Shown: positions 27,281-56,889 of the stretch, one piece after another
Layout of the letters: each line of letters opens with the position of its first letter
Position numbering within the stretch: position 1 is the first letter of the stretch
Notes under the pieces: generated by a model
Database searches by the model: none
What the model was told of the DNA's origin: nothing
Seen by the model: the letters and a program-made list of their open reading frames with translations, nothing else
Position numbers and translations under genes: made by a program
NCBI RefSeq assembly: GCF_020085105.1
Contig: NC_058043.1
Location: 19,644,667-19,708,666 of the forward strand
DNA from: Siniperca chuatsi
Taxonomy: Eukaryota; Chordata; Actinopteri; Centrarchiformes; Sinipercidae
Direction: 5' to 3'
DNA: 64,000 nt

Positions 27281-27289
27281 GCCCGGCGC

Positions 27290-27904
27290 CTGAGCACAGA
27301 TAAGGAACTCAGACACAACTGTTTCACAAAAAAGTTTATCTCGAAGTACAGCTACCTTGTGGTTTGACAACTCATCTTCATATTTACATAAAGCTACCTA
27401 GTCTACACGGCAGTTGTGGCAGCACTCAGCAGGCAAAATAGGCTGCTCACACTGAAAAGTCTATTTCAGCCGAAATACGTACAAGACGTGGTAGTGAAAG
27501 TGCATCAGATTAAATGCAACTTCGTCCATAGCATTTCTAACTTAGCTCACCGTCTTTTAGCGTTAGTAATGCCACTGTATTCTATGAAACCTTTAAACCG
27601 TGTATTAATTATTTCCCGGTGAAAAAGTGAAAACATGTCAGTACAACTCACTATTATCACCACTAGAGGACAGAAGAACACTCAGAGGAAACGAAGCGGA
27701 AGGGGGTCGTCTTCTTCGTTGGTAATGAAAGCTGCATCAAGAAATGTGCTAAACAGCACAGGGGGCTTGTGGAATTGACAACAATAACACAAGCCTGGTT
27801 GTTGTTGTTAGCAGCTATAGCTGTGTGCATTTCAGAGAATCAGAAGAAGGCGTTTCTGAGAGTTGCTCGTCTGTTCCGTGGATCCTGCTCCTAGTTTCTA
27901 TTTG
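27290..27904. promoter_or_regulatory. Head-to-head promoter region, DnaJ gene and zc3h10
   Basis: The minus-strand DnaJ start and the plus-strand zc3h10 5' exon lie less than 650 bases apart. A noncoding zc3h10 exon probably ends at 27904 (CTATTTG before GTAAGA), and its next exon starts at 28286 after TTTTTGTCTTGCAG. On the plus strand 27484-27491 reads AGACGTGG, a 7-of-8 match to the XBP1/ATF6 element TGACGTGG. That would suit an ER-stress gene. No TATA box was seen. The transcription starts are inferred. Confidence 0.4.
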
Positions 27905-28426: not shown

Positions 28427-31394
28427 ATGCCTGACCGGGACAGTTCCTACCTGTCAGGTGGTGGTGGGAGTGCTGGTGGTCTGGGTGAGGAAGGAGGACC
28501 TGGGTCTGGTTTGGCAGGGGGCTCGGCAGAGGGCAGAGGAGGTTCAGGAGGAAGTGTAGGAGGCAACGTCTCTGGCTCTGGGAGTATGGGGGGAGGAGGG
28601 GCGCTCGGAAATGGCAACAGCTGTGGGAACGGTGGAGGTGGGGGGCAAGGTGCAGGACTGGCGTTGGATGGTGTCTGCAGGGACTTCATACGCAATGTTT
28701 GCAAGAGAGGGAAGCGCTGCCGCTTTAGACACCCAGACTTTAATGAGGTGCCAGACTTGGGAGTGCAAAAGAATTAATTCATCTTCTGTCATGACCACCA
28801 GAATAAGGAGTGTATGCGCTCCAACTGCCGCTTTGTCCATGGATCTAAAGAGGATGAGGACTATTATAAAAAAACAGGAGAGCTACCCCTCAGACTAAGA
28901 GGGAAAGTTGCAGCAAGACTGGGCCTGTCGCCCATGGATCTCCCCCATAGCCGTGGGGAGGTCCCCATCTGCAGAGACTTCCTGAAGGGAGAGTGCCAGA
29001 GGGGCAATAAATGTAAATTTCGCCATGTCAAAAAAGACTATGAATATGAGCCTTCCAGGGTTGGAGTGGGTGGTGTTGTGGGGCCAGGTCCCAGTGGAAT
29101 GGTGAATGCTGGTGGAGGGATAGGTGGTGGAGGAGGGGGTGCCTGTGGAGGAATGCAAGGACTTGTGGGGGGTGGAGGTGGAAGTAATATGATGGGGATG
29201 GGTTGCCCCAGCCTGGGTGGTTGCAGAGATCCAGTTATCTCAGGAGTTGGGGGAGTAGGTGGAGGTGGGATGACTGGTTGTCTGTCCATAAGTTCTTCAG
29301 GACAGCGGCGTTATGACAGGAGCGCATGCTCAGTGTATGACCCTCTGCTTGAAAGTGGGCTGTTTGATGCTAGCTCCCTGGAGGCCTCTATGGACCACAC
29401 TGCTCTACAGTTCAAGAGGCGGCGGTTGGAGGGGCTGCGCCTGGCAGATGGGAGTGGAGGTGGGCACTATGAGCTGGGACTGCAAGCCACTTTGCCGACA
29501 CGTCCTCTGGAGTACAGGTTCCTCGAGGAAGAAAACTCCCTGCTGAGGAAGAGAGTGGAAGAGTTGAAGAAGCAGGTTAGAATAAGAGATGGAAAAACAT
29601 TATTTGGATCTCTGAGAAGTCCATGCATGAAATTATACAGGACTGGCAAGCCTTTCCCACATGTATAGCACTTGTATTTCAGTATGTATTATGAAATCTG
29701 ATTTGTGTTTTTAACAACTAATACCAGACACAACGGGGTGCACAGTAACAGCCACATTTGACAGTGTAATGCAATGTCTTAACAAATAATTAATTTTATA
29801 AGCTCAACAAAGGTGGCATTTATTGTAGGCTGTTGTATCAGATTTCATTATATTGTCAAATGTACTTTGTATGCTTCCTGTACTGAATGAATTAATATGG
29901 TCCTTTCACATGATCGTGTCATGTGCCATATTATATTACATAGCCTTAAATTCAACTTACTTGCTTTAGTTTTTCATTACATTACAAATGTAACAAATCT
30001 TTAACAGCATTAGTAAACTTGGAAATGTTGATTTAGTTGTTGCCTGGTGTTTGTATTTAAAAATCTGTTTATCATTTTCAGAGTGATCACAGCCTCTAAA
30101 CATTTGTTTTAAATTTTGGTGGCAGGCCTACTTTTTTGTTGACACACTGTATTTTTAATGGGAGAGGAGCAGTGTCCAAGCCACTTATTCGATAACAAAA
30201 TTTAAAAGTTTAATATGGACCAGTCAGTGATTAGGACTGGAAGAACGTTTTATTTACAGATGAAACAAAGTTTAAGGTAGTAGTAGAAAAGTTAATGGAA
30301 ATAGATGGCAGCATGAGAGATTAATGCTTTAAATGAATGCATTCTTTATGGCTTAAACAGGATCAAGTACATGTTTACCACAGAAAAGCATCACTTTATT
30401 TTGCACAGGCATGCTAGTCCTTCTGGTGGATTTATTTTTGAGCAGTAATGACCCTAAACAAACAGAGAAATGTCAGACCTGTTTTTAAATCCAAGGAACA
30501 GCTGACTTGGAAGGGTTTTCCCTTCACAGTCACCTGACTAAAACCCCAATGAATATATTTAGGAACATCATAAGACACAGACACACTCTGGGAAGAGTAA
30601 AGGCTACTTGATCATTATGCACAAACGTGTAGAATCAATAACTGCAAAAGCTGTGATTACGGTAGTTGGTGGACATGCTAAATGTTAAGGACTTATGGCT
30701 GTCAGTAAACAATTTCCTTTTTAACTTTAAAGTAGCTATAATGTGTTTTGGTGTGGTTTCAAAAAATATATAATTAGAACCTTGTCTTTGATAAATGTTA
30801 AGAGTTCCCGGCCGTGGACTTTTTGGAATCCAGCCCATAGACATTTTTTCTTTTCTAATCCATGTCTTGTGTGTTTTTCAGGTTTCAAATCTCATTGCCA
30901 CAAATGAGGTTCTTCTGGAGCAGAACGCCCAGTTCCGAAACCAGGCCAAGGTGATGACGCTGTCCTCCACTCCTGCACCCACTGAGCAGAGTCTGGCGCC
31001 CCCTGTGGGTGCAGTAAGTTCCTATAATCATGGCATCGCCCAGACTCACACCACTCTGAGCAGCGCTGGACTGCAGCCTCGGCCTGTCACTCAGCAAGAC
31101 CTGGTAGCTCCTACCGGTGCCCCTGCAGCGCCCCCGACTAATGCTGCCCCACCTACAGCCCCTCCGCCCCACCTCAACCCTGAGATCACCCCCCTCTCAG
31201 CCGCCCTTGCACAGACCATTGCCCAAGGGATGGCACCACCTGTTTCTATGGCACCAGTATCTGTATCTGTGGCACCAGTGGCAGTGTCCATGACACAGCC
31301 TCTGCCTGGCATCACCATGAGTCACGCCACCACCCCGATGGTGTCGTACCCCATAGCGAGTCAAAGCATGAGGATCACCACTCTGCCTCACTAA
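28427..31394 (+). CDS. zc3h10: Zinc finger CCCH-type protein 10, with an in-frame TAA
   Basis: Coding exons 28427-29575 and 30882-31394 join in phase 0 and would give 553 aa if codon 117 were sense. Order: a Gly/Ser-rich N-terminus (1-80); CCCH finger 1 (Cys84 to His102); finger 2 (Cys121, Cys129, Cys134, His138); finger 3 (Cys182, Cys190, Cys196, His200); a Gly-rich stretch; a coiled coil across the intron (RFLEEENSLLRKRVEELKKQ, then VSNLIATNEVLLEQ); and a Pro/Ala-rich tail ending MRITTLPH. All of this matches vertebrate ZC3H10, an RNA-binding protein. Codon 117 (28775-28777) is TAA where the family has GAA (Glu), in an otherwise open and conserved frame. A noncoding exon probably lies upstream (to 27904). 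Position next to esyt1 fits human 12q13. The identity is firm; whether this allele makes full-length protein is not. Confidence 0.93.
28775..28777 (+). other. zc3h10: In-frame TAA in zc3h10, expected GAA
   Basis: The frame reads GVQKN, stop, FIFCHD, whereas the family has KNEFIFCHD. One G-to-T difference explains it. Reading resumes in the same frame with no shift. A product ending here would keep only the first of three zinc fingers. Confidence 0.9.
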
Positions 31395-32854: not shown

Positions 32855-35800
32855 ATGGAAAGCGACAAATCGGAGCCGAGTGAACCCAAGGGCGCCGAGT
32901 GTCCGAGCACAAGCGACTCCGAAAAGAAAGCACTCCTCGGCACAAAGAGTGCCGTGGAGACAGAAGCTCCCAAACCCAAGACCCAGGGGATAAGTGCAGT
33001 CGCGGTGCTGTGGACGTTTGGGAAATGTCTGGGAGCCTTGCTGCCCGTCTACCTGGCCGGTTACTACCGGGTCAGCACCAGTCTGTTGGTGTTCGGGATG
33101 ATGGTCTACACGGGATGGAAACATGCCCGAGAAGCCAAGGAGGCACGCCTGAAGTCAGCCATACAGTTTCTCAACAACGAGGAGGAGTACACATCCATGA
33201 AAGTGTCCAAAATCAAGCGAGACCTTCCTGCATGGGTAAGAAATGACTCTACAACTGCCAGTGTGTCTTCTGTCATCAAAAACCCTTATACAACAGCTCT
33301 CCTTCCTGAACCCACTTTGGCCTAGATTAACCCCACGTTACGTATAGCAGGGCAAAACCTTGCAGTGAACCCTAAAATCATATCACTAGCATACAGGGAC
33401 TTGCAGGGTATGACAAAGAGTTTGTTTCCAGTAAACCAGCCTAATCATAGCCTTTACGCCATTTTTAGCTGATATGGCATCACGCCAGTCTTTTAATATT
33501 GTGGACATTTTTGGGGGAATTATTTGAAATTTCTATATACTGTCCTGTTACGATCCTGGTCTCTTATCAGAAAGGGATTAGGGAAATGTTTCCATAAATC
33601 ACTTCCTCATATGCAGTAAAATACAGGCACTCTTGAGGGCAGTGTCATTTTTTCTTTTTTAAAACTTGTAAAACTCTTTTTCCTAATGTTCCCCATGAAG
33701 TATAGGTCCTAATTGGAACATGCATGCCACCAGGTGTGCACGTCCCTTTCTGTTATATGCAGTACTTTGTTCCCACATTACTTCTGCTAAGACAGTTGCC
33801 AAGTTTGCTGCATGTTTTCATTTCAAGTCTGAACTTGTTTGAAAGCATTATGGGGAAATTTCAAGTGCATTGCAACAACAACAACAACAACACTTAAACC
33901 CTCTTATCTTTTGTGCAATTTTAACTAAAGGTGGCTGAAAAATACTTTTGATTTGCATGGCATACATCCTTGAGAGTATATGTACCCAAAATGGAAATGC
34001 TGAAACCCACATCGGCATGTTTTGAATCATAACATTTAGCCACACCCAAATGAGGTTCCTGTGGATAGGTCTACTTTTTTTGAGTAAGTGATGACAGTGA
34101 TTGCTTGACTAACCACACAGTATGCATATAAAGTATTAAAATTGCATATGCATATAAAAGTATTAAAGCTTAAAGTATTCAAAAAGGGGCATCTTCATAT
34201 TGCCCTCCAGTGCTGCTCTCAATATGCAATATAAGAGATAATTAGTTAATCCCAAGACATATAAATCGAGAGGACATTTCAAGCACTCATATTAAAAGTA
34301 TTGTCAAAGATAAACCACATAGTAGCCAGATATATCATTCAAAGTGTTCTTTGAATAGACACTTGCTGCAGTTTATCTGCTTTCCTTTTCTCTTTTTGAA
34401 ATATTTGTTCTGTCTAAAACCTGGTGCAAAAAGCATTGGGATTATATCAACAGTGCTATTGATGACATTTCCAGACCTGCATAATATGGCTGAATCATTT
34501 CCCTTTCCTGTTGTGTGTTTATCATGCACTATGCACAGTTTAAGTATGTGCCCTCATTGTCTATCTTTCCTTCAGGTCAACTTTCCAGATGTTGAGAAGG
34601 TTGAATGGCTGAATAAGGTAATATATCAGTGGTTTCCTATTTCACTTCACCTTTTCACCATGTCACTTTACATAAACACACTAATTGTTCCTCCTTTATT
34701 AAGCCCACAGCAAACACACACGTCTGTCTGTTCAGTCGCCCAGCTGTTGTGCTGATTGACACTCAGTAGAGTATGCTACGTTAATAGCTGCTGCTAGCTG
34801 ATAGATGGTAGCACTGCTGCTGTTGCTGCCGTGTTCCTGAAAAGGCCACACCCCCATTAGGCTAGCCACTTTGTCTGTACTGCAGAGAGCAGGCCCAGTG
34901 CCAGGCAACCCTCTCAACATTTCCATTTCATTGCAGGCTAGCTCATAGGAAGTGGGAGGAGCTGCCCAGACTCCCAAACTAAAACTGCAGCCATTGTTTC
35001 CCCACCCCCTTTGCTCTTCTAGCCCAGAGAAACTAGGGCCAATAATATAGACATACAGAAATAAAAGTATTCACGCTAACAAGACCACGAGATCTAAGCG
35101 TCAGAGAGCAAGACAAAGTAGAGGTTTGAGACTGGTTACTGGAGGGGAGGTCAGCAGATTCCCTTCAGGCTTCATCCTCCACAGGAGCAGGCGGCTGATG
35201 ACTCACACTCCACTTATGCCAGACTATAACACACTCTGGGTTTTTTTTTCACAGTCACACAAGCACACAAGCAAACATTGCCTCTGCTTTTGTTCTTCCC
35301 CTGTCGGAATAAAGATTTAACATGTTTATGTAGCAACATTAATATTCTGTAAAAAGTGACCAAATGTCGAGCACCAGATTCATTGTGGTATATGTAAGGA
35401 CCAAAATAATGACTAACAGCTGAGGAGACTCAACTGGCTACAGCTGTCTGCCATTCTTCAGTTATTGCTTATGGAAGCCAAGGCATTTGACAGATGGTTT
35501 TGTTGCTATGTGGCTAAAATGAAAAAGTTTACTTAAAGAAGTAGTCTCTGGTTGCAGGGATGTACATTGTATATTATGTTACTTACTGTGTCTTACTAAT
35601 AAAAGCAGCTTATAACCATGTTGTTGCTGGCCTGCCTAGGTCCTGCAGCAGGTGTGGCCATTTGTCGGCCAATATCTTGAGAAGCTGCTGGTGGAAACCA
35701 TTGCTCCATCTATCCGAGCCTCAAGCACCCACCTCCAGACCCTCAGCTTTACAAAAGTGGACATGGGAGACAAGGTGATGCCATTGATAGTTTAACTACA

Positions 35801-38800
35801 ATATGACACTGCCATAAAGATTCACACAAACGATCCATGTCATTTATATTGTGCAAACAAATGTGCTTTCTGTTTGCTCCAGGCCATGAAGGTTGTAGGG
35901 ATCAAGGCACACACAGAGAATGACAAAGGACAAGTGCTGCTAGATCTGTATATTAGGTGAATTTATGTTTATCTATTGCGAGTCAACATCAGCTCTGTAC
36001 AGCTTTTTGAAGGCATTATTGTAGATTACATTTTTGTTCTTGTATCCTCAGCTATGTTGGCAATGTAGAGATCAATGTTGAGGTGAAGAAATACTTCTGC
36101 AAAGCTGGAATCAAAGGAATACAGGTTTGTCTTCTTTTCAAAATTAAAAGTATTATTTGACTGAATTATAGTTGCAGATGTTGCATAGCTAAAGGGGTAA
36201 CTGAAATATACAGACAATCTGCCAGTCTATAAGCATTTATCCATGGTTTTCAAAAACATCCTTTCTGCTTCTCTGTCTTTAGTTACATGGGATGATGCGG
36301 GTGATTCTGGAGCCTCTGATTGGAGATGTGCCCATAGTGGGTGCAGTCACCATGTTTTTCATCCGTCGTCCTGTACGTGCATCCACATTCACCTCTATTT
36401 GTCCTTTTCTTGTTGCCTCTCAATCCCCATTCCTGTGACTATCATGTATCTCAGTATAGTCACGTATGCTTTTTGTGCTATTGATTTCTCATCAATCCTG
36501 ATGGATTTGCTGCATACATTATGTCCCTCTGTCTAATCTCTTCCCAGAAACTAGACATCAATTGGACTGGACTGACTAATCTGTTGGACATCCCTGGACT
36601 GAAGTGAGTCATGCTGGAACAACCTTTCATTGGTTTACACAATACCTTATAATAAACATAACCTCACAATATAAGTGTTTGGGGTTTAGTATACAGTGAA
36701 TAGTAAATGATATAGGCAACACAACATTACATTTCCATTGAAATGCTGTTTCTCCTTTGTCTCAGTGTCATGTCTGACAGCATGATTATGGATGCCATTG
36801 CCTCTTTCTTGGTGCTGCCAAACCGCCTGGTTGTCCCCCTGGTTCCAGGCCTGCATGTGGCCCAACTACGCTCTCCTTTGCCCAGGGTAAAGCTTGAATA
36901 CACACCTACAGATAGAGGGAGACTATTGTATAATTTTAATCAGTCAACACCAGTATATTACACCTTCGTCCCTCTTTTTCTGTCTTAGGGTGTGGTACGC
37001 ATCCACCTACTGGAGGCACAGAATCTAGCAGCCAAGGACAACTACGTGAAAGGGGTTATGGCTGGCTTGTCTGACCCCTATGCCATATTGAGGGTGGGCC
37101 CTCAGACCTTCACCTCCCAACACATTGACAACACAGACTCTCCCAAGTGGGAAGAGATGTATGAGGTAAGAAGAATGGAAAGTTTGAAATTTGTATCATC
37201 GTTACTTTCCATGTACAGGTGTTGGAAGACTCAATCATATATCATTTCACTTTGTCCTGTATTTGAGGGATTAGACTGCTACAGCGCTCGGGGGAATGTT
37301 TCATTTTCATTCATGGTCACATGAGGCCACAGCCAGCTTCCATACAAATCCCTCTGTCAGTCTTCATGTCCTTGTGTGTGTCTGGTACATCAGGTCATAG
37401 TCCACGAAGTGCCTGGTCAAGAGTTGGAGGTGGAGGTATATGACAAAGACCCAGACCAGGATGATTTCCTGGGCAGGTACATATGCATAGTTCATGTCTT
37501 TTGTGTGCCTACGTTGAACCTCACATTGTCACTTTTCACCTTTCATGGCCAGTTGGAAAAAGTACAAGTATCTTTTTTTTTTTTAGAATTGTACTCTTAA
37601 CATTACAGCATCTGCTTTCTATGCTATGTTCCTTTTATTTTCATCAAAGTAGTTGTTCTTTTGTCTTTTTATTTAATTCAGTCTTGCACTCCTCCTCTAT
37701 ATAGGACCAAATTGGATTTGGGCATTGTAAAGAAATCCATAGTTGTCGATGATGTAAGTAAAAAAGCTGTTATCATTTCAGTCACAGTTTGAATAAGCAA
37801 TTGTTTGACCTTTTGGATTGTAAATGTATGCCTGTGGCTGTCTTCTCAGTGGTTCACATTGAAAGACACTCCATCAGGACGGGTTCATTTCAGACTGGAG
37901 TGGTTGGCCTTACTGCCTAGCACTGATCGACTAGAGCAGGTTTGAATCACTCATTTCCACTGATACGTTACTCTTAGGTGATTTAGATTATATTATATTA
38001 TTATAGATTTTTGTGCGCCATTCAGCGCACTCTATCTTTGTGTCAAACATTTATATAAATTTAAAAAACCTGTTTGCAATTCTCCCCCAGATCCTAAAGA
38101 GGAATGAAAGCGTTACTAGTAAGGCTGGTGATCCACCTTCTTCAGCCATCTTGGTTGTATATCTGGACAAGGCTGAGGCACTTCCTGTGAGTCAAATATC
38201 TCTACCCTCTCTGCCCATGTTCGTGCTCAGCTCAGAGCTGCTTCCTGTGTGTGGTTAAATTGAGGCAGAGCTGTAACTGCCAACTGTCTGACATTCCACA
38301 AAGTTGTTGCCTTGGCCTCTTTCCCTGTGCACTCCATTGCAGTTTGGATGAGTGTGGCTAACTTCATCTAAGGCCGTTAAACATACATTTCCTAATTTCT
38401 GTTGTTGTATCATACACAAAAAGGAACAGCAGTGACAAACTCAGTCTTTGTGGTTTCTTTCGATGCAGATTTATACTTCCTGATTATGCCATGCGGTATG
38501 GTGCCTCCTTTCAGTTATTTGTGCTGTTGCTATGGTAGCCTTATACACACTATTATTCACATCAACCATGTGTTGTCAGATTGGTAGATAAGTCTATTTA
38601 TTGCTCTGCTCTTGGTTACAGAATGTCATTGTTCACATGCCTTACTGTGTATTCATACTTGTAACTGTAACTGTGTATCTTTAAGATGAAGAAGGGAAAT
38701 AAAGAGCCCAATCCCATGGTGCAGTTGTCTGTGCAGGACATCACTAGAGAGAGCAAGGTATATCTGCTGGGAAAGTCCATTATAATACTGTATATTGTGT

Positions 38801-41800
38801 TGCATTTATTGCTATTGGTGAACATACTATTTATTCTCGCCTGTAGACTTGTTACACAACCATTAATCCCGAGTGGGAAGAAGCTTTTACCTTCTTCATC
38901 CAGGATCCTCGCAAGCAGGACATAGACATTCAGGTAACAGCTGATGAAATCAGCTACCCTGCACTAAACTTTGTTTGATATTCTGATAAACTTGTTGTGA
39001 TCTGATTATGGCTTTTCTTCATGTTAAATTAACCAGGTGAAGGACGCTGACCGTGTGCAGACGTTGGGCAGTCTGACCATCCCTTTGTCCCGTCTGCTGT
39101 CCAATTCTAATCTTTCTCTGGACCAGTGGTTCCAGTTGGACAACTCTGGATCTGCCAGTCGCATCTATATCAACACAGTTCTCAGGGTAAATGGCAGCAA
39201 GACCCATTCACCAATCCTGCACTGCATTAGACTAATTAATGAATGATAAATACATCAAATTATAGAATCAAAAATTAGGTTTTGATGAAATTTTTTTCTA
39301 ATGCATAAAGGTGTCTCAACTGAAAATAAATGAGACCGGGATTTTAGTCACATTTTATTTACCTTCTTTCTGTCTTCTCTTTTCTATTGTAACATAGACC
39401 CTGTGGTTCGATGAGGAACATATTCCATCTGATGTGTCATCTAATCTGGAGGCTGGACTGTCCAAACAGTTGCCCAAGCAGACCTCCCCCCATCCTAGCT
39501 TTGCCACAGAGGTAATGGAGGACAGAGCAATTATGACTTTGACTTAGGACTGTGTTTGTAATTGTGTTTAATGTGTTTGTAATTCTTTTCAGGGACTGCT
39601 TAGAATTCACCTGTTGGCAGGGCAGAATCTTGTTCCAAAAGATAACTTGATGGGGGGCATGGTAAAAGGCAAGAGCGACCCCTATGTCAAGATCAACATC
39701 GGGGGTGAAACATTCACAAGTCAGGTTATCAAGAGTAATCTTAACCCCATGTGGAATGAGATGTATGAGGTAAATAACATGATGTTATTTATTGAAAGAA
39801 CACAGTTTTTATTAAACATTGTAGAAGTGGCTGAAGTTTGCATGTGTTTATAAATGTCTGTTGTATGATTGGTTTGAGATAGTCCTTTGAAATTTGCGAC
39901 TTTGTTCACCCCTCAGGTGATTCTTACCCAGCTGCCTGGCCAGGAGCTGCATGTGGAGGTGTTTGATAAAGACATGGACATGAAGGATGATTTCATGGGC
40001 AGGTACAACAGCTATAAATAATTCAGCTATCAAATAATGGATTCATTAAAGATACATTCTAATCTCGCATATCCCGACATACAGGCTGAAGATCAGTCTG
40101 AAGGACATCATCGATTCTCAGTACACTGATCAGGTGGGATCTTCCTTGCAAAACACATCGCTGCAGGTTTAGCTTCAAAGAGTGTTGTCAAAATAAGCAT
40201 AAAGCCAACATGAAAGCCTGCCATACCTTAGATCTAACGCACAAGTCTCACTTAACCCTCTCTAAATACATCCTTAACATATTTTTAATATATAATGATC
40301 ACTTGCTTGATAATATGTAAATTAAGATTAGAAAGTGTTAGTGAAAATGTTATGTCTTTGCCACTGCTTCAGCAAATCTTGAACTGAATATGAATATGAG
40401 TGAAAAACTGCACAGAGTGAACATCATTCTATGTGAAAAGACAGACTTTGGGTGTTTTCATTATTGTTATGTTAACTCTATTGGCACTGTGGGATTGTAT
40501 TTACTAAATTGAAAAGACTTAACAACATTCTAAGAGAAGCATTTGGTATGTTAGATAAAAACGAGGAGAAAGAATGAGCAGCAAAAACGCCATCATAGAC
40601 TCATTGTTACTGAAAGAACTTGCACGTTGGTATCTCCCTTGTTTTGACCATACCCAGTAGTGCCTGTGTTAAAATGATTCCACTTCTTTCCTCAGTGGTA
40701 CACTCTCAGTGATGTGAAATCTGGTCGAGTTCACCTGGTACTGGAATGGGTTCCAACAGCTTCAGAGTCAGACAGATTGGACCAGGTCGGTATTCCCAGA
40801 TGAGTAATGGACCAGTGCTGGTAAGCTTGATCCATACTAACTGGTTTTTTCCTGTGTCCTCAGGTTCTTCAGTTCTTTTCCAGACAGTCCTACCAAAACA
40901 AGACAGTTCCCTCAGCAGGCCTACTGTTTGTCTTTATCGAGCAAGCAGATGGCTTACCAGTGAGTCTTTTATTACTGATGTTAAGGACGATGTCGGGATA
41001 AGCAGTTAATGTTTAAAATACATATGCTTTTATTATTATTGCCTATTTGTCTCTCTACAGGTTAAGAAGAGTGGTAAGGAGCCAAAAGTGGGAGCAGAGG
41101 TTACTCTTGGAGAAATGTCCCGCAAAACTACAGTAAGACTTCAGACTTAATTCAGTTTAGAACTGATAGTACTAAGTTTTATTGTAAGAGTGGAACGATA
41201 TCTGTTAGTAATATTGACTGACTCTTGCATCTCTAAAGGTGTGTGATCGTACCACATCACCGCAGTGGAATGAGGCATTCTGCTTCCTGGTTCGAGACCC
41301 CCGAGAAGATATTCTTGTTATTAAGGTATGCTGGGTGCAGTGCATAATCAAAGTGGAGCGTAAAGTGCATCAGCCATGCAGATGCAAACAGTGTGTTCTC
41401 TGATATATAAATACTCCTATATGAACACCCTGCATTGTGTTTCTCCAGCTCACTCACAGCTGGACCTTGCCCATTGGTTCCCTGGTGGTTCCTATCAGAG
41501 AGCTGCTGTCTGAACCCGAGCTGGTCCTGGACCAGTGGTTCCATCTGGATGGAGCCTCACCTGAGAGTCAGGTTCTTCTGAGAGCTGAACTCAAGGTGGG
41601 AGAACTCTCTGTCTGTTGCTCTGTCAGTAGTGGAATGTAACTAAGTACATTCATTCAAGTATTGTACTTAAGTACAGATTTGAGAAACTTTATACTTCTA
41701 CTCTAGAGGCAAATATTGACAGCTTTTGTTACTAGTTGCTTTTCAGATTACAATTTTTCATACCTGTTACTTTTGATACTTTAAGTAAACTTAGCTGATA

Positions 41801-44800
41801 ATACTTACATACTTTTACTTAAAGGTTATATTGATAACATATTTATGTAGATGAATATTTATAAAATAATAATACATCCACAGAGCTTTTAGAAAGGTGC
41901 GGGAAAAGTATCATTTTTCCTATAAAAAAAATATGATAATATTTTAATATGATTAAAAAATGTTGACGGATCCAAAATGAATGTTTTGTTTATCTCTGTG
42001 TGAAATGTCTGAACTTTGGTTCCTGGTTCTAACAATAACCCATAAAATTACAGTTCTGCATAATTAAGCAAAATAAACAACAACTACAGACAGCCATAGT
42101 CCTTACAACCTTAACTAATGTGTTGTCACCAGTTAGATTGTCAAAATTAGAAAAATAACAGCTTCAATCCCTGAGGAGCTACATTAGCATTAGTGACGGT
42201 TGCGTCCAGTTACCTAACGTTATAGTTCCCTCAAACAATGTAACATTATAAAAAAGATGCGTATCAGAGGGGATTTAGACGTGGACCAGGGTCTGACATA
42301 ACTGATGGCCCGGGGCCAGTACACGTTTATGCAGGGCAACATGATTGTGGCGGACTGGTCCGCTTATGAAAAGACTGTCGCTCTTCTTTAAGAATGGAGT
42401 GGATGTAGGATCCCAATATATTACCAATGTGGCATGTCAAAGGTAAATTAAAGTTCAGAACTACTGTAAATCTTCTCATTATGCAGTTAAGACCCAAAAC
42501 GTGACTGTTATTGAGGGTGTCATCTCATGTAGCTGTTAGCCCTATTATGCGACACTTCGCTGAGGTACTAGCCATGTAGCCAGCTGCGTTGAGCTCAACA
42601 GCTACAGTTCTCACCTTAATATATGGATCAGAAAATACTGACATGATCATACAGTCATCCTTTCTTCCTGTAGCTATTGTTGCTGTGTGGAGCTCAGCTG
42701 TTTTTTATAACCCACTATGAGATTTGTTTTCAGCAAGAAAACACTTCGACTAATGTTGGGTCAACACTACGCTAACACTAACGCTAGCTAACGTCAACTT
42801 TTACTCTAGCTGACTGTCTAAAGTCGAGCACTGTGGGGTTTAATAGCATCCCTACAATGTACTGTACTTGATTGGATTAAAATGTAAATATCTAAATCTA
42901 TAGCTAATGTATAATTACATGTTGCAAAATGAATTCATTACTCTATCACGAAAGATTCATCACTTGTTATGACTGAGTCTGAGTCTCACTCCACTCGACC
43001 ATGAAATATGCAGGTTGTGCAACGAACTAGCAACCACTGGAATGGAATGGGGGGGTTGCGCGCGTCATCTAGTGGCTGGATGTTATCAATAGCACCTTTA
43101 AGTTTTGAATGCAGGACTCTACTTGTAGTGGAGAATTTTCTTCTTCCACCACTGCAATCAGGACTGTTACAAAGTTGGTTAATGAAGTAAAATAATAATA
43201 ATATCAACTCAACTGCAGATGCTGATTCCTAGCAAATGTCCAGGTGCCGCTGATAAGGCTATGGTCACTTCAGTGTCAGACCCTTCCCCTGCTCAGCAAA
43301 AACAGGAGACAGACATAGTGCTGAGGTGAGAAAGTTAAATCAAAAAGTCTGTCCTTACTTTCCATTTGTCCTTTGTCTCTTGAATTTTGTATTGCTACTC
43401 TTTGTGTTTTTAGGTTAAGTTCAGTGGACGCTCCTCCTGTGGAGACTATTGTCCCTTCAGCGTCCTTACATGAAGATGTTGACGTAAAGGAAAGAGCAGC
43501 TAATGTGACTGAGGAGAAGGTGGAAGAATCACCAAGCTCTGCCATAGCACAACCTCTTCATACGTCCCCAGACCTCAGCTTTGCCAGTGAGGTAACATCA
43601 CAAAATAGTGATCTACAGTAGCAGATACATGCAACAAGGCATGGCACATTTAATAAAACAACCTAGCAGTATAAAGTTAAATGACCCCTTCCTGTAGGGG
43701 CTGCTGAGGATCATCCTTTTGGAGGCCCAGAGTCTGGTTGCCAAAGATAACAAGATGGGCGGTATGGTGAAGGGCAAGAGTGACCCCTATGCCAAGATCA
43801 ATGTTGGAGAGTTTGCATTTAAGAGTCATGTCATCAAGGAGAATCTCAACCCGGTCTGGAATGAGATGTATGAGGTGTGTATGAAGTACTGTACAGTTTG
43901 ATTTGCTCTGAGCATGATTTCAAATAAAGATATGACAATGATAATACTTAATGTTAGCCACCTCATTTTCATTGATATAACTGTTTTATCTGTGCTGTGT
44001 TCCCTCAGGTGGTGCTGAGGCCTCAGTCAGGACAGGAGGTGCAAGTAGAGCTGTATGACAAAGACATGGACAAAGATGACTTCCTGGGCAGGTAAGGGAT
44101 AATGTGGTTGTCCAACTATGACTGGGAGGCTTTATTACCTCAGCATGGTATTCAGTGGGTTGACGTGTTTACAGGCCCAAACTGTAGTTATTTGACCATA
44201 AAGATAATTTACAGATATATTACCATATGATGTATATTTGAAGAGTTTGAATTATGGAAAATGGAAAGAAATGGAAAATGTGCAAAATCTTTTTCTCTGT
44301 GAGCAGATTCAAAATCAGTGTGGCAGACATCATCCGTTCCCAGTACACAGACCAGGTTAGTATAGCATGCCTTATTGTATCTTAGTTATTGCCGTGGTGT
44401 AATCATAGGCTCATCTTAAGCATAGGTGTGCATCTCTGCTTCAGTGGTACACCCTAAATGACGTGAAGTCTGGACGTGTTCGCCTGATACTGGAGTGGGT
44501 ACCAGCAGTGTCCCATAATGCCTCTCTGGACCAAGTTAGTGCAATTTTTATCAGTAGTTTATGTTTCCTCTCTTATTCATGCCTTTATTTATAATCTTTA
44601 TCAGTGACGTTTCCTATTCCTCCCACATCTCTACTATTCCAAATATGATCCCCTGCTCAGTTCACTGTGCACGTCAATGCTGACTCATTGTAATGTATTT
44701 TTCATTTGATTCTGTGCTGCAGGTGATGCAGGTGCAGTCTCTCCAGTCTTACCAGAACAAGACCGTTCCCTCTGCAGCCCTGCTGTTTGTTTATGTGGAC

Positions 44801-47800
44801 AGAGCACACTTATTGCCTGTGAGTCCCTTGTAATTTGGTATACTGAAAGTATAGTATAATAAGTGTGCTGTCTCAGAGTTATAGATAAACAGTTTGGAAA
44901 GCACACGTTAATAAACAGATCCTCGATTGGCATACAGTGGAAAACTCTTTCTAAATATTGTTTTTGTAAGTTATTACTGGATTCAAATAAATGAAGACTT
45001 TGAGAAATAGATGCTGCCTGCTGAGCAACAATCACTGATTCTATGATGCAGTGATGTGAGTCAGGGATGTTTTATTTTTTAAAAGAAAGGGAAGTTGGAT
45101 CTCGACCCATTGTCACCTTTAATTACAGAGAGTGAATACAAACTATTCACATAATGTTATGTGTTATGTGTCTTTCTGTGTCCAGTTTAAGAAAAGTGGA
45201 AAGGAGCCCAAGGCTGGGGTCGAGCTTGTTTTTGGTAACACAACCTACAAAACCAAGGTATGAGACTGATAATGAAGATGTTAAACAAACACACACACTA
45301 TTGCTATGCCGGTCTAGGCTGCAGCTAATGAATACTTTTGTTTGTTTTTATTGTTTAATCTGTTTTTAAACAGCTGTGTTGAAAAAGACACAATGCTTGG
45401 CAGTAATGCATGCAATACCTTCATCATGGTGTTCAAAATACCAGCTGAAACTTTATTAAAGCAGAAACAGCTTTATCAAAGTGCAATGACTATATATCCT
45501 CACCCAACTTACCCCTCCTCTTTTTCTATCTGAAGGTATGTGATCGCTCCAGATCACCTGAGTGGAATGAGGCATTCTACTTCTTGGTTCGTGACCCCAG
45601 AGAGGAGATGCTCATAATGAAGGTGACTGTACTGTGTGTCTCACAATTCTCATAAGGAGTATCAGAAGCCTGCTGCCAGTGTCAAGAACATCTCCACTTA
45701 TGACTGACATTATAAATGTGTCCTCATGTCTGTAGTTGTCAAGTGCATGGGACCAGCCAACGGGATCTCTTGTAGTCCCTGTGAGAGAGCTGCTCTCTGA
45801 ACCACAGCTGGTCCTGGACCAGTGGATGCCTCTGGATGGAGCCTTACCTGAAAGTGAGATCCTGCTGAGAGCTGAACTGAAGGTAAGGGAATACACACAC
45901 ACAGGATTATTAATGGATACACAGAATAACCAACCGGAAATGTATTGTTGACAGATCCTGAGCTCACGGATGACTGAAGCGCCGCAGCCTTCTGTGACTG
46001 GATCAAAGAAAGAAGAGATGGTCGTTTCTGCTGAGCAGACATTCAATGCAGCCAGTGAGGACAAAGAAAGGTCAGAGTTGCCAACAGACATTTGAAACAT
46101 AAACAAGGACTAATAGTGTCGTGCCCATCAATGAGAGCTGAAACAGGGGGTGGGATATATGTAGCCAAACTAAAAAAAAAAGCTTATATTCCCTATTGCT
46201 AGTCCCAGTCTGGAGTCTGGCTGTGGTGTTTTGTAACAACAGTCTGTATTTTCAGATTGGTTGCAGTATCCAGCCAGTTTAAACACTCTGAAGCAGATGC
46301 CACAGCCTCCACAGAAGATGCTACTCCCGCTGAACCAGCTGCCATTCACACTGCACCTTTTACGTTCCCTGCTGCTGCTGCTGTGAGTCATAGCACATTG
46401 TATTCAGTTGTTTAAACCTGTCTATTTTCACCCTTAATAACCTTCAAGTAATTTTGCTCAGCTGGTGGAGGAACCAACAGATCCAAAAGAGCATCCCACA
46501 CAGTCAGACACTGCAGTTAAAGGAGACTTTGAACCACAAACAATACAAAAAGAAGGGTGAGCTCCACATCACAGCAAATAAGACATATTTCTTTTTTCCC
46601 CTTCATTTTTGCTTAAAATTAGAAGAATAGAAAGAAACCTGACAAGAAACATATTTAAATATCTGCACTGTGTGTGTGTGTGTGTGTGTGTGTGTGAGTG
46701 TAGTACTGGTTTAGGCAACCTTGCTCACGCCACAGTGACCAGTCTTCCTGCTGACACCCTGAAGCCAGCAGAGGTCACAGAAATCCCCAAAGCTGGTGAA
46801 GTTCTTCCACCACACACCACCCCCAACCAGGACTTTGGTAAAGAGGTGGGTTTAGTTTATGCCTTGATTTACAGAGTGGAAGTTGAATAATTTGCTTCCA
46901 CCCACTCTACAGTGGTATTTGTTCTTCTTCACTGTCCCTTTTTGATTTTATGTATATTTGCCTTACTTGAAACAATCAGAAAACACTTCCATTACCACCC
47001 TTCACCACTCTGCTTAACTGAACACTTACAGTATATGATGTTATGGTTTTCATCATGTGCCTGATAATTGATCACATTGACAATAATATCTTGCCATCAT
47101 TCATTTTGTCCTTAATCATTAGATGGTGAATTATTGATGCTGCTGGGTCTCAGCTTATCATGTGGGTTTTCTGAGTAACCTCAGCCTTTTTCCAAACACT
47201 GTGAATATGCCACTTCCTCTTGTCTTTAAATATCTTGTTAAGTTCTACTGGGGAGCTTTCAGCTTCCTCTGCTGTTTTGGTTGATCTGGTGTGTGTTCTT
47301 CTGTGTCATGCCAGCTAGAATAAAAAAAAGGAATGTCGGGACAGGAGCCTCAAAATATTGTGCCAACCATTGTATCATTTATACAATGTACAGAAGTCTG
47401 GGTTTTTTTAATTAATGAAAAAACATGAAAAATAAGTTCTCGTAAACCAAATTCAAACTAGACAAGGTAAAGGTATCCATTATCTTATAAAGGTTAATTT
47501 TAATCTACTACAGTGGCATCATTTGTTCCTAAAGGCAGTAGAATGTCAGATTAAGTAGTACTCATATGGGTCTGTTCAAAGTGTCATTTATGCAGGGCTG
47601 ATGAATTGGTTTAAATAAATCTTAAGATAGGGAACACTGAAGTTGTCTATGGGGTTCTAGTTGTCTATGTTTTTGTAAACAAAGGTTTAATGATATATTT
47701 AGATAAATTATTCTGAAACAACGATATGAGGAAGAAATGCCTGTTTTCCCAGTCGTATTCATGCTGTTTCTGGCTGTCGTGTGGAGGGCACACAAGCCTG

Positions 47801-50800
47801 TATGTATTTTAACACTTACAATCTTCATCCTGTAGGGGCTGCTGAGGATTCACCTGCTGGAGGCCCAGAATCTGGTTGCCAAGGACAACCTGATGGGGGG
47901 CATGGTGAAGGGCAAGAGCGACCCCTATGTCAAGATCAACGTGGGGGGAGTTGCATTCAAGAGTCATGTTATCAAGGAGAATCTCAACCCAACATGGAAT
48001 GAAATGTATGAGGTATGAAGTATTCTCGGTTTAAGTGTTGTATGTTGTCTGGATTTCACTGCATGCACAGTATTTTGTACAAACATGGGTTTGTGTTTGT
48101 TTTTAACAGGTGGTTTTGACTGGGCATAGCGTCCAGGAAATCAAGTTTGAAGCATTTGATAAGGATTTAGATTCTGATGACTTCCTTGGCAGGTGTGTGT
48201 CTTAAAGTTTGTTAATCAGTGACGTATATTAGTTCTCATGATAAAAAGTGTCCTGTGTACACTGATCTGCATGGTGAGAATTATAACAGAGATACACCTG
48301 TACCTTACATACTTTTAAACTGAAATGCATCAATTCATAAATATAAATAAATAGTTATGTTTTATTGTTTTTGTTTTTTTACTGTTGCATAGATTTGACT
48401 TAAATACAATATTTGACTTTGTGTGGCAGACATGTGTTTTTTTTCAAAATAAATTTAATTAAGTTTAAAGAAAATTGTTCCAGTCATAGTGGTTAATTAA
48501 TAGAATAGAATTAATAGAGGAGTATTTACTAATACCTGTAAATTATTTGTATTAATCAGTGGGGTTGATTGCTTTTCTGCTGTTGTCATTAGATAGTGTT
48601 AATATACCCTTTAATGTCGGCATAGGAAAAAATCTTGGTTTCTGTAAGTAAGACATTAAAATTAAAATCTTGTTGTTAAACATTTGCCTGTTTTCATGTT
48701 CACAGATTCAGTATTAAGCTAAATGAGGTCATCAGATCCCAGTACACAGATCAGGTTAGTCAATAATTCATAGTCTGAAGTCGTGCCACATGATTTATAC
48801 TTAACTTATAACTTATATTTATACTTTTAAACTATGTTCTGTGTCATTTCCTTATATAAAGGGTATCGCCCTGCTTCTTTAACTGACTGTCTCTGTTGCA
48901 GTGGTACACTCTGAATGATGTGAAGTCTGGGCGGGTTCACTTGATACTGGAATGGGTTCCTACAGTGTCAAATTCAGTCAGACTTGACCAGGTCGGTCCT
49001 TACTTATGTTTACAGCTCTATTGCCCACTAGCTTTAGCCTCACTCTGTTTATTCAAACATTTTTTAAACATGGACTATTGGAGTGCCTCCAGCCTCCTAG
49101 ATAATGCCGTTGAGTCGCATTCCAACACGCAGGGCACATTATTCACATTCACATAATTATCAGGCCTAACTGTCTGTGCTCCATGTCGCAGGTGCTGCAG
49201 CTTCAATCTCTCCAGTCTTATCAGAACAAAGCCGTCCCCTCTGCTGCTCTGCTCTTTGTCCATATGGAGAGAGCACACTCATTACCTGTAAGTCGCCTGC
49301 AGTTTATTATTAGTTAACAAAAATGCCTCATATAATATAACATGAATGCCTCTTTCTTCCTTGATAGTTGAAGAAGAGTGGAAAGGAACCCAAAGCAGGA
49401 GCTGAGCTTGTTCTGGGTGAAACAACCTACAAAACTAAAGTGAGTCTCTTGATGCACGGTGCTCTATAGTCAGTCTGATAAATATATTATTATTGTAATA
49501 CCACTATCTTTTCATCATCTCTCTGAAGCTGTGTGAGCGCAGTACCAGTCCTCATTGGAATGAGTCTTTCTACTTCCTGGTCCATGACCCTAAACAACAG
49601 ATGCTTGTTGTAAAGGCAAGACATTTATTTACATATAATTGTTTGAAGGATCTGCATCTCACATTTAACAGTAGTCATATTGGAGGGAATTTTTCATTCT
49701 CTCTCTCTTGCATTGCAGTTGTCCAGTGGTTGGGACCAGCCAATGGGATCTCTGGTGGTTCCTGTCAAGGAGCTGCTTGCAGAGCCACAGCTGGTCCTGG
49801 ACCAGTGGTTCTATCTGGATGGAGCCTCAACTGAGAGTCAGATCCTGCTGAGGGCTGAACTCAAGGTGAGAAAGCAAACCCCCCCCACACACACACACAC
49901 ACACACGTTGTTTCGTATTAAACAACAACTTATCAATAATGACACTATTTCCTATTCTGAATTTGTTTTCAATAGATTCTAGATTCCAAAATGGTGGATA
50001 TGATCAGTGCAGGGACTCTGCCCTGTGCTGCTTCTCGCGGTGGATCTGGAAATGGGCAGGTGAAGTTGTCTCTTTCATATGCCTCACAGCAGAGACAGCT
50101 CATCGTCATCGTCCATGCCTGCAGGTGTGCTTCCTCAAATTGTGTGCCAAAATGCTTTTAGTCAGATTGTTTTCTCACCAATGATATACTGTTTGTACGG
50201 TTGGTATAACAGCAGTTATTTGGACATTGTTTATGACAGCTAAAATGAGAAAAAATGAGCAACGCACACTTTGCACATTGCACTGTATTTACAAAGAGGC
50301 ATTATACTGCTCTAATATACTGGACCTTAATAGTCTTACGCTTTAACATGTCAAATTATTTAAGATATGCTTTCTTTTTCTGTGTACAGAGGTCTGTTGT
50401 CTCAAAGTAAGGATGGTGTAGACAGCTATGTCTCCCTCATGCTGCTGCCAGACAAAAGCAAGGCTACCAAGAGGAAGACCGCAGTGAAGAAAAGAGACCT
50501 CAACCCAGAATACAATGAGAGGTAATTCATTAATTGGGTAATTGTATTGTCTTTATATTCCTGTGCAGGTTTTTTTTTAAATCTCTGAAGATCTTTGTTA
50601 GTGTTCACGTCTAATCATTTTTGTCCATTTCTTTAAGGTTTGAGTACGATCTGCCTGTGGCTGAGACGAGATTCAGGCGCCTCAGTGTATCAGTGAAGAA
50701 TAACTCGGCCTCATTCAGGAGCCGTGACGTAATTGGACAGGTCAGTCTGAGACTCTACTTCTACCTCCATCTGCAATTCTGATTCTTAAAATGTTCCACA

Positions 50801-51723
50801 TCACACACATACATTAGCCAAAGGCTAACAAGTGACCATCAGGGTATCTAAAGAATGTCACATGTGACCACTCCACAGCACGCTTACTTTAAGGTAATTT
50901 GGGTAAATTCCCCCTAGTACAGATGTGGCCAGGCTGCATACTAGTGCTAGCCTGTCTGATAACTTAAATTCTTTGTATGACTGTTTTGAAGTGTGACTAG
51001 CTTTCAAATTCTTTCCCTCTGAAGTGCACTGAATACATGCTGAAATACTGCTTATACAGATGTTAACATGTCACTCCTGTTCTTTAGGTGCAGATCGAGT
51101 TGGCTCAGCTTGATCTGATTTCTGGTGTCACAGAATGGTAAGCAGAGCTGATTGAACTTTCTCCAGACTGCATTTATGTTTGTTAAAGTAGTGTTCTGCA
51201 TAGAATATTTAGCATCAAACACTCACCATGTGTTGACTTGAAAGGTGGCTGCAGAAATTTCATAGTTTCCTCACTGACAGAGAACGGAGGCTGTGGTTAG
51301 CTTGGATTAATGACATTTTAACGATAGAAAAAAACATACATAATCACTAAAGCATAAACCCCTTGTCCGCTATCTATACGCTCAGTTCAAACAGTGTTTC
51401 ACCAAAATATGGCTAAGTACACTGCCTCCAGTGCCTCCATTGAGGAGGCTATAGCAGTGTATTTAGCCTATTTTGAAGAAACACTGACTATTTGTAACAT
51501 ACTGAGTATGCAGTCCATATGGACAGCAGAGAAGTTGATTATCCTGCCGGAGTAGTTTGAGAAGTTTCTGTGGACGTATCACTTCATTTTCAGTTTTCAT
51601 TGTTAAATGATCACCATTAATTATATCATTGCTGATGATTTAATTCTCTCTTTAAGTCAGTTTTCATTTGATTTTCATCCCTCTATTTATTCCAGGTTCA
51701 CTCTGAAAGACGAAGCTGAATAG
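32855..51723 (+). CDS. esyt1: Extended synaptotagmin 1 with nine predicted C2 domains
   Basis: Fifty-two coding exons join in phase to 1,840 aa, against about 1,100 for human ESYT1. Exon 1 (32855-33235) gives a polar N-terminus and a hydrophobic hairpin (about 45-88) that anchors in the ER. Exons 2-8 (34576 to 36886) encode the lipid-carrying SMP domain (128-324; starts VNFPDVEKVEWLNK). C2A-C2B occupy 325-592 (exons 9-16, 36989-39186). A 38-aa linker (39398-39511) leads to three C2C-C2D modules (631-898, 994-1260, 1421-1687) separated by acidic linkers, and a final C2E (about 1715-1840; exons 49976-50124, 50390-50521, 50638-50740, 51088-51137, 51696-51723). E-Syts tether ER to plasma membrane and transfer glycerolipids under Ca2+ control. 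The start ATG is the first in frame with good context. Intron 46 uses a GC donor. The 3' end follows at AATAAA, 52464. Confidence 0.95.
36989..39186 (+). repeat. esyt1: esyt1 C2A-C2B exon module
   Basis: Eight exons of 177, 83, 49, 90, 96, 72, 87 and 150 bases: 36989-37165, 37394-37476, 37705-37753, 37850-37939, 38091-38186, 38686-38757, 38847-38933, 39037-39186. C2A has SDPYAILRVG and YDKDPDQDDFLGR, the acidic loops that bind Ca2+. C2B has QDPRKQDIDIQVKD and keeps fewer acidic ligands. The exon-length pattern is the same as in the downstream C2C-C2D modules, pointing to an old duplication. Confidence 0.9.
39593..41595 (+). repeat. esyt1: esyt1 C2C-C2D module, copy 1
   Basis: Exons 39593-39769, 39917-40002, 40085-40133, 40696-40785, 40864-40959, 41061-41132, 41239-41325, 41449-41595 (177, 86, 49, 90, 96, 72, 87, 147). 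C2C starts GLLRIHLLAGQNLVPKDN and has KGKSDPYVKINIGG and FDKDMDMKDDFMGR, with one residue more in the Ca2+ loop than copies 2 and 3. C2D starts after SYQNKTVPSAGLLF and lacks most Ca2+-binding aspartates. By position and by divergence from the other two, this is probably the original C2C-C2D. Confidence 0.9.
41625..43175 (+). mobile_element. Nested MITE-type insertions in esyt1 intron 25
   Basis: The left end reads AGTAGTGGAATGTAACTAAG and continues with the TACTTAAGTACA phrase of a common fish MITE. A matching far end, TCTTCCACCACTGC, appears near 43141-43154, 1.5 kb later. Between them lies unrelated sequence (about 41,900-43,080), including a GC-rich patch with GGGGGGTTGCGCGCGTC, so a second element probably inserted into the first. 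This explains why the intron is the longest in the second half of the gene. No transposase frame is present. Confidence 0.55.
43219..43591 (+). other. esyt1: esyt1 acidic linker 1, two exons
   Basis: Exons 43219-43325 and 43414-43591 encode 95 residues rich in Glu, Asp, Ser, Pro and Ala (for example VKERAANVTEEKVEESPSS), with no predicted fold. They separate C2C-C2D copies 1 and 2. Human ESYT1 has no counterpart at this place because the module is single there. Confidence 0.85.
43698..45882 (+). repeat. esyt1: esyt1 C2C-C2D module, copy 2
   Basis: Exons 43698-43874, 44009-44091, 44307-44355, 44445-44534, 44723-44818, 45186-45257, 45536-45622, 45736-45882 (177, 83, 49, 90, 96, 72, 87, 147). 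It starts GLLRIILLEAQSLVAKDN; the Ca2+ loops KGKSDPYAKINVG and YDKDMDKDDFLGR are intact. Its first exon differs from copy 3 at about 7 of 59 residues and from copy 1 at about 15, so copies 2 and 3 are the closest pair. Confidence 0.9.
45308..45375 (+). mobile_element. Fragment of the hAT-like MITE in esyt1 intron 33
   Basis: GGCTGCAGCTAATGAATAC followed by TTGTTTAATCTG resembles the end of the MITE at 3775-4155 in opposite orientation. Short and degraded. Confidence 0.35.
45955..46845 (+). other. esyt1: esyt1 acidic linker 2, four exons
   Basis: Exons 45955-46070, 46256-46382, 46462-46556 and 46704-46845 encode 160 residues rich in Glu, Pro, Thr, Ala and Ser, with no recognised domain. They separate C2C-C2D copies 2 and 3. 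Exons 36+37 (243 bases) and 38+39 (237 bases) are each divisible by three as pairs, but no single one is, so only pairwise skipping would keep the frame. Exon 36 has a weak donor, GTCAGA. Confidence 0.85.
46669..46696 (+). repeat. esyt1: (TG)n microsatellite at an esyt1 splice acceptor
   Basis: About 14 TG units end seven bases before the acceptor TAG of exon 39 (46704), taking the place of a pyrimidine tract. Confidence 0.9.
47836..49865 (+). repeat. esyt1: esyt1 C2C-C2D module, copy 3
   Basis: Exons 47836-48012, 48110-48192, 48706-48754, 48902-48991, 49192-49287, 49368-49439, 49529-49615, 49719-49865 (177, 83, 49, 90, 96, 72, 87, 147). It starts GLLRIHLLEAQNLVAKDN; KGKSDPYVKINVGG and FDKDLDSDDFLGR keep the acidic Ca2+ ligands. 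The seventh exon ends in AAG before GCAAGA, so this intron uses a GC donor. Copies 1 and 2 have a GT at the same junction. Confidence 0.9.
49887..49906 (+). repeat. (AC)n microsatellite
   Basis: Ten AC units after a C run in esyt1 intron 47. Confidence 0.9.
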
Positions 51724-52877: not shown

Positions 52878-53352
52878 AGCAGTGGTGGAAGTAGTACTCA
52901 GATCTTTTACGTAAGTAAAAGTACTAATACCACATTGTAGAAATATTCATTTACAAGTAAAAGTTGATTACAGGAATACTAATAGAAAAAATGTACTTAG
53001 TGCCAAAAGTAAAAGTACTTGCAGAATCACCCATAATATAATAATGTTTGTTATTGGATTATAATTCTTGATGCATTAATGTATAAGCATCACTTTAATG
53101 TTGCAGCTGGTAAAGGTGGGGCTAAGTTTAACTACTTTATATATAAATGCTGGGTTACTAAATCTATAATAATACATCTAAATGTATTTGTTGATATTTT
53201 GTAGTAATATTCAGAATCTGTAAAGTAACTTGTAGCTAAAGCTGTCAAATAAATGTAGTGGTATAATAATTGTAGTAGTACAATATTGCCCCCTGAAAAG
53301 TAGTAAAATAAAGTAAAGTAGTAGTACCTCCAAATTCTACTTAAGTACAGTC
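52878..53352 (+). mobile_element. MITE between esyt1 and dtx3l
   Basis: It begins AGCAGTGGTGGAAGTAGTAC and then TTTTACGTAAGTAAAAGTAC, and ends with TTCTACTTAAGTACAGTC and TTGAGTAAA. These are the two ends of the abundant fish element also seen in esyt1 intron 25. There is no coding sequence. It finishes about 140 bases before the dtx3l ISRE. Confidence 0.65.

Positions 53353-53903: not shown

Positions 53904-56889
<2,986 letters not shown>

Follow-up and report, generated by a model that had tools for sequence, protein, structure and literature searches.

The nine-C2 extended synaptotagmin gene esyt1b of Siniperca chuatsi: predicted structure and divergence of three tandem C2C-C2D modules

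Extended synaptotagmins (E-Syts) are defined as having three or more C2 domains (PMC1976326). In zebrafish, FAM62A1 encodes five and FAM62A2 nine C2 domains, the latter through added module repeats (Craxton 2007, PMC1976326). Across the fish genomes surveyed, the genes were later named esyt1a and esyt1b, and an internal duplication was described that adds four C2 domains to esyt1b; in T. rubripes and T. nigroviridis, the duplicated section lacks one phase 0 intron through loss (Craxton 2010, PMC2823689). A C2 count of 9 versus 5 was also given in Nonet 2012 (PMC3484663), where the duplication was placed early in teleosts. Here we analyzed a 64,000-nucleotide stretch of the Siniperca chuatsi genome (NC_058043.1, positions 19,644,667 to 19,708,666, forward strand; hereafter the window), which carries a gene that is almost certainly the teleost esyt1b of the extended synaptotagmin family. 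The first-pass annotation of this DNA had raised the possibility that a nine-C2 E-Syt is new. This was not upheld: papers from 2007, 2010, and 2012 (PMC1976326, PMC2823689, PMC3484663) describe the form, which rules out a novel architecture. The nine-C2 esyt1b is a confirmed observation, already known and ordinary as a discovery.

Bases 32000-54500 of the window were read directly, and the exon boundaries of esyt1b were picked by hand and then checked by script. The predicted gene consists of 52 exons on the plus strand (32855-51723), and its spliced translation runs from an ATG to a single terminal stop (1840 aa). Fifty of the 51 introns are GT-AG and one, after exon 46, is GC-AG (donor AAG/gcaaga). 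The features of the gene are as follows.

32855..51723, + strand: complete esyt1b coding region, 52 exons, 1840 aa (open spliced frame)
32855..33235, + strand: exon 1, N-terminus with hydrophobic stretch, putative endoplasmic reticulum (ER) hairpin (by eye and homology)
34576..36886, + strand: exons 2-8, SMP lipid-transfer domain (PF17047, 265.7 bits, residues 132-310)
36989..37939, + strand: exons 9-12, C2A, five aspartates kept (Pfam and alignment)
38091..39186, + strand: exons 13-16, C2B (Pfam)
39398..39511, + strand: exon 17, short linker, 38 aa (translation)
39593..40785, + strand: exons 18-21, module 1 C2C; second exon of 86 nt with an extra codon in presumed loop 3
40864..41595, + strand: exons 22-25, module 1 C2D (gene model and Pfam)
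43219..43591, + strand: exons 26-27, 95-aa linker (splice sites and open frame only)
43698..44534, + strand: exons 28-31, module 2 C2C (gene model and Pfam)
44723..45882, + strand: exons 32-35, module 2 C2D (gene model and Pfam)
45955..46845, + strand: exons 36-39, 160-aa linker (splice sites and open frame only)
47836..48991, + strand: exons 40-43, module 3 C2C (gene model and Pfam)
49192..49865, + strand: exons 44-47, module 3 C2D, GC-AG intron after exon 46 (gene model and Pfam)
49976..51723, + strand: exons 48-52, C2E and stop codon (Pfam; best solved match 2dmg)

The span from the first base of exon 18 to the last base of exon 47 (39593-49865) is the one that the first-pass annotation had marked out. 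It contains three blocks of eight exons, each encoding a C2C-C2D module: exons 18-25 (39593-41595), exons 28-35 (43698-45882), and exons 40-47 (47836-49865). The exon lengths in the blocks are 177, 86/83/83 (modules 1/2/3), 49, 90, 96, 72, 87, and 147, and phase 0 was found at both ends of all three modules and of both inter-module linker blocks. The exon lengths and in-phase arrangement proposed earlier were thus reproduced for all three blocks by the script-checked model. Exons 9-16, encoding the C2A-C2B pair, have lengths of 177, 83, 49, 90, 96, 72, 87, and 150; by this pattern, the C2A-C2B pair is the older relative of the module. The GC-AG intron lies at 49616-49718, and its counterparts in modules 1 and 2 are GT-AG.

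The esyt1b protein was cut into nine pieces and scanned against Pfam, in which the cut-off of C2 (PF00168) is 22 bits. All nine units exceeded it (68.3, 62.4, 95.3, 45.2, 86.3, 40.7, 87.8, 47.6, and 70.2 bits) within one open frame, in agreement with the nine C2 domains predicted earlier. SMP (PF17047) scored 265.7 bits at residues 132-310, N-terminal to C2A (326-431), and the protein thus combines the SMP domain of an E-Syt with nine C2 domains, where the family definition asks for three or more. E-Syt1 differs from E-Syt2/3 by a second C2 pair, C2C-C2D, whose C2C is of the Ca2+ type; such a pair was present, and the four extra C2 domains, nine in total, are those by which teleost esyt1b is defined in PMC1976326, PMC2823689, and PMC3484663. 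Exon 1 contains a hydrophobic stretch by eye, and this region showed a 56% match to a paralogue on another contig (C10, described below) in a genome search.

C2C and C2D of module 3 (C2C3-C2D3) aligned over residues 2-266 of 268 with the C2A-C2B structure of human E-Syt2 (4npj, E 1.6e-59; also 4npk and 4p42); because of this match to a solved structure, the fold of the module can be regarded as already fixed. The best solved match of C2E was 2dmg (E 1e-30; entry titled KIAA1228 protein), which is the C2C of human E-Syt2 (PMC5690283). The esyt1b protein therefore resembles human E-Syt2 in module 3 (C2A-C2B) and in C2E (C2C), and differs from it in C2 number, which is three in E-Syt2 (PMC7889955, PMC6141807, PMC5690283). 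It shares with mammalian ESYT1 and esyt1a the order of hydrophobic N-terminus, SMP, C2A-C2B, C2C-C2D, and C2E, but has three C2C-C2D modules instead of one, and nine C2 domains instead of five.

In the alignment, C2A and each of the three C2C copies retain five aspartates at the presumed Ca2+ positions, as do C2A and C2C of esyt1a; these positions are presumed from those that bind Ca2+ in the Syt1 and PKC C2 domains. Together with the Pfam matches, the five aspartates in each of the three C2C copies bear out the earlier statement that every block encodes two C2 domains, the first of which is of the Ca2+ type. By eye, the C2D units lack the C2C-type aspartates in the alignment, and C2B lacks the loop 1 aspartates and keeps two acidic residues in loop 3. 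C2C of module 1 (C2C1) has an extra codon in its presumed Ca2+-binding loop 3 (86-nt exon, 39917-40002), and among the aligned domains the extra residue was not found in C2A, C2C2, C2C3, or C2A and C2C of esyt1a. Loop 3 of C2C1 presumably has the length found in the Syt1 and PKC C2 domains, the other E-Syt copies here being shorter.

A direct-repeat search of 39000-50500 gave nine families. Six of these comprise three copies and two comprise two, and the remaining family has four, its fourth copy lying within the C2B exon. The modules share 586 (1 vs 2), 591 (1 vs 3), and 619 (2 vs 3) of 801 aligned bases (73-77%), and 186, 190, and 206 of 267 residues, respectively; the Pfam C2 scores and the identity over 801 aligned bases place the repeats beyond chance. 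Each of the three module pairs was evaluated by both the Nei-Gojobori (NG86) and YN00 methods for the synonymous divergence (dS) and the ratio of nonsynonymous to synonymous divergence (dN/dS). For pairs 1-2, 1-3, and 2-3, NG86 gave dN/dS of 0.19, 0.205, and 0.18 with dS of 1.09, 0.99, and 0.88, and YN00 gave dN/dS of 0.17, 0.18, and 0.19 with dS of 1.18, 1.05, and 0.86. With exons masked, no blastn match was found between the module introns for 1 vs 2 and 1 vs 3 (E up to 1), and a single 24-base match for 2 vs 3 was not significant (E 0.55); the unmasked control for 2 vs 3 gave seven matches at E up to 0.001 (best 8e-56). The module copies are old and under purifying selection. The dS of 0.88 rules out that modules 2 and 3 were copied very recently.

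The intron between modules 1 and 2 (41596-43218) contains a dispersed repeat. With 41700-43080 as the query, at least 108 matches including itself were found in the host genome (40 of the 1823 first-look candidates were scored), and one of them, on the same contig at a distance of about 0.12 Mb, was 97% identical over part of its length. Inverted arms of this repeat lie at 41817-41840 and 43080-43103; on visual inspection, imperfect inverted repeats seem to form its outer ends. At 52880-53350, a stretch starting CAGTGGTGGAAG resembles, also by eye, the outer end of this repeat.

We searched the host genome (718.8 Mb, 65 contigs; the window lies on contig C2) with residues 1-898 of esyt1b and obtained 59 matches on contigs C2 (esyt1b itself), C10, C12, C13, and C19. 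In the 20 kb of C10 examined by tblastn with the 52 exons, one C2A-C2B block, one C2C-C2D block, and C2E exons were detected, and the last exon was not found within this 20 kb. The C2-pair blocks of this paralogue have exon lengths of 177, 83, 49, 90, 96, 72, 87, and 147 or 150. All five of its C2 pieces scored above the Pfam cut-off; the last piece covered just the initial part of the domain. The paralogue fits the esyt1a of Craxton, with a single module in this 20 kb and five C2 domains, and a five-C2 esyt1a thus coexists with the window gene, as described for teleost esyt1b. The matching loci on C12, C13, and C19 resemble other E-Syts. The proposal that two extra modules were gained on the fish lineage agrees with the single-module paralogue in this genome and with the accounts in PMC1976326, PMC2823689, and PMC3484663.

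The order of duplication was studied with six trees, built for the whole module, C2C, and C2D from both protein and DNA, in which the three esyt1b modules were joined by the module of esyt1a and by the C2A-C2B pair of each gene. Modules 2 and 3 were paired in five of the six, with support of 97.3/97 (protein) and 97.3/75 (DNA) for the whole module, 89.6/86 (protein) and 46.1/42 (DNA) for C2C, and 92.8/82 for C2D protein. The C2D DNA tree differed, grouping module 1 with esyt1a (97.6/86) and leaving 2 and 3 as successive outer branches. Of the 15 rooted topologies possible for the esyt1b modules and the esyt1a module, 8 were put to topology tests, with 2000 and then 20000 replicates. In the approximately unbiased (AU) test on protein, two of the eight survived; each makes modules 2 and 3 sisters, with either esyt1a (p 0.87) or module 1 (p 0.27) as the outermost branch. 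Six survived in the Shimodaira-Hasegawa (SH) test on protein, a milder test, and six were kept at 0.05 in the AU test on DNA (p 0.67, 0.063, 0.67, 0.051, 0.39, and 0.32), three of which break the 2-3 pair. The suggestion of the first-pass annotation that copies 2 and 3 are the most recent is therefore supported in part, by five trees and the protein AU test, whereas the DNA AU test and the SH test each leave six topologies standing. Modules 2 and 3 are favoured as the latest pair.

The dS between the C2A-C2B pairs of esyt1a and esyt1b was 1.84, and that between the esyt1a module and modules 1, 2, and 3 was 1.72, 2.73, and 2.69, respectively, values above 1 being near saturation. Because the dS between modules (0.88-1.09) is below that between the genes, the module duplication would fit a time after the split of esyt1a and esyt1b. 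Gene conversion among the modules would be expected to give an equal picture of dS.

Compared with the main texts on teleost esyt1b (FAM62A2), the window gene has the same nine C2 domains, two further copies of the C2 pair, the repeated intron pattern, and a five-C2 esyt1a paralogue in the genome. It differs from esyt1b of T. rubripes and T. nigroviridis in that all module introns are present; within this main-text comparison, nothing distinctive of the window copy was found.

The best explanation overall, which we consider probable, is the nine-C2 teleost esyt1b as described. Assembly duplication of one real module, the artefact that the first-pass annotation had named as a refutation, could produce three similar tandem blocks. 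However, nucleotide identity of 73-77%, dS of 0.88-1.09, and the lack of significant similarity between the module introns rule against it, and the same structure is described in other fish (PMC1976326, PMC2823689, PMC3484663); its probability is practically negligible.

Two other explanations concern how the modules are used. Most transcripts might skip one or two modules by alternative splicing, so that the family of tethers produced would carry five, seven, or nine C2 domains. The modules and linker blocks are all in phase 0, so the frame would be kept on skipping, whereas purifying selection is similar in all three module pairs, which would also be expected under occasional use of a module, and a nine-domain product is described in PMC2823689 and PMC3484663. 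We regard predominant skipping as unlikely. Slightly less unlikely, though still a minority view, is relaxed domain gain, in which the extra modules are tolerated spacers without a specific Ca2+ role that are maintained through the folding requirement of each C2. Mice lacking all three E-Syts are viable and fertile (PMC6141807), so constraint on E-Syts may be weak, and the C2D copies lack the aspartates of C2C by eye. Against such spacers stand the inter-module dN/dS of about 0.2, the retention of five of five aspartates in every C2C copy, and the reported presence of the nine-C2 form in all teleosts examined (PMC3484663).

Under the preferred reading, the esyt1b product would be an ER-anchored lipid-transfer tether with three tandem C2C-C2D copies. 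In mammalian E-Syt1, Ca2+-bound C2C is reported to hold phosphatidylinositol 4,5-bisphosphate (PI(4,5)P2) and to be the main tethering region, an inhibition of the SMP domain by C2A, relieved by Ca2+, has been proposed, and the contact distance becomes about 30% shorter upon a rise in cytosolic Ca2+ (PMC7889955). Ca2+ on C2C is also reported to promote tethering via binding of C2E to PI(4,5)P2 (PMC6141807). The linkers of 95 and 160 residues in esyt1b consist of P, E, S, T, K, Q, A, D, G, or N at 71% and 77% by raw composition. With 0.365 nm per residue and a persistence length of 0.6 nm, as used in PMC5690283, the computed contour lengths come to about 35 nm for the shorter and 58 nm for the longer linker, with root-mean-square end-to-end distances of about 6 and 8 nm, respectively. 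The extra C2C copies may act as added Ca2+-dependent membrane contacts joined by these long flexible linkers. Such a multivalent grip would raise membrane avidity, and the reach before Ca2+ draws the ER and plasma membrane together would be longer; both effects are plausible because two more Ca2+-type contacts and two linkers are present. We give an even chance to this mechanism of a multivalent, longer-reach, Ca2+-switched ER-plasma membrane tether, given the five aspartates retained in all three C2C copies, and the wider reach and steeper Ca2+ switching suggested by the first-pass annotation would be guesses. It is doubtful, though conceivable from the loop 3 difference, that unequal C2C copies with differing Ca2+ affinity form a graded, stepwise Ca2+ ladder setting the membrane distance, in contrast to the single C2C switch of mammalian E-Syt1.

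Several points weigh against the nine-C2 tether and its mechanism. A transcript skipping one or two modules stays in frame owing to the phase 0 module ends, the inter-module linker exons were drawn from splice sites and the open frame alone, and the Ca2+-ligand positions were assigned by alignment and by reference to the Syt1 and PKC C2 domains, not from structure. In addition, reviews disagree on whether C2C (PMC7889955) or C2E (PMC6141807) holds PI(4,5)P2.

Other features were observed in the rest of the window. Just upstream of esyt1b, an open frame with CCCH zinc-finger matches (28778-29668, + strand) is probably zc3h10, a neighbour of ESYT1 in human. On the minus strand, the open frame at 26924-27397 encodes a DnaJ domain (66.6 bits). 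At 55145-56413 (+ strand), an open frame has matches to a RING finger, a DTX3L-like KH domain (32.4 bits), and a Deltex C-terminal domain (32.2 bits). Frames at 62360-63777 (- strand) resemble repeats of low-density lipoprotein (LDL)-receptor-related protein by eye, and the two that were scanned had no Pfam match at 0.001. Two open frames at 406-1468 look like a retroelement remnant; the second had a weak reverse transcriptase match (19.7 bits, cut-off 29.6) and the first no Pfam match. A tRNA scan with bacterial settings and an Rfam scan of the window gave no matches.

In the open-licence literature searched, to which subscription journals mostly do not belong, no functional study of the nine-C2 form was found by symbol or by a broader search, and the phrase 'nine C2 domains' was absent among the matches listed in a broad search. 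PMC2751788 concerns E-Syt2. The gene esyt1b appears as a hub gene of a liver module in a transcriptome study (PMC12024417) and is named in a coho salmon selection scan (PMC8102513). The esyt1b described here adds one more fish to the described set. A teleost with both genes has a five-C2 and a nine-C2 E-Syt1 and thus offers a natural experiment, in which contact-site distance and Ca2+ response could be compared between the two C2 numbers within one animal.

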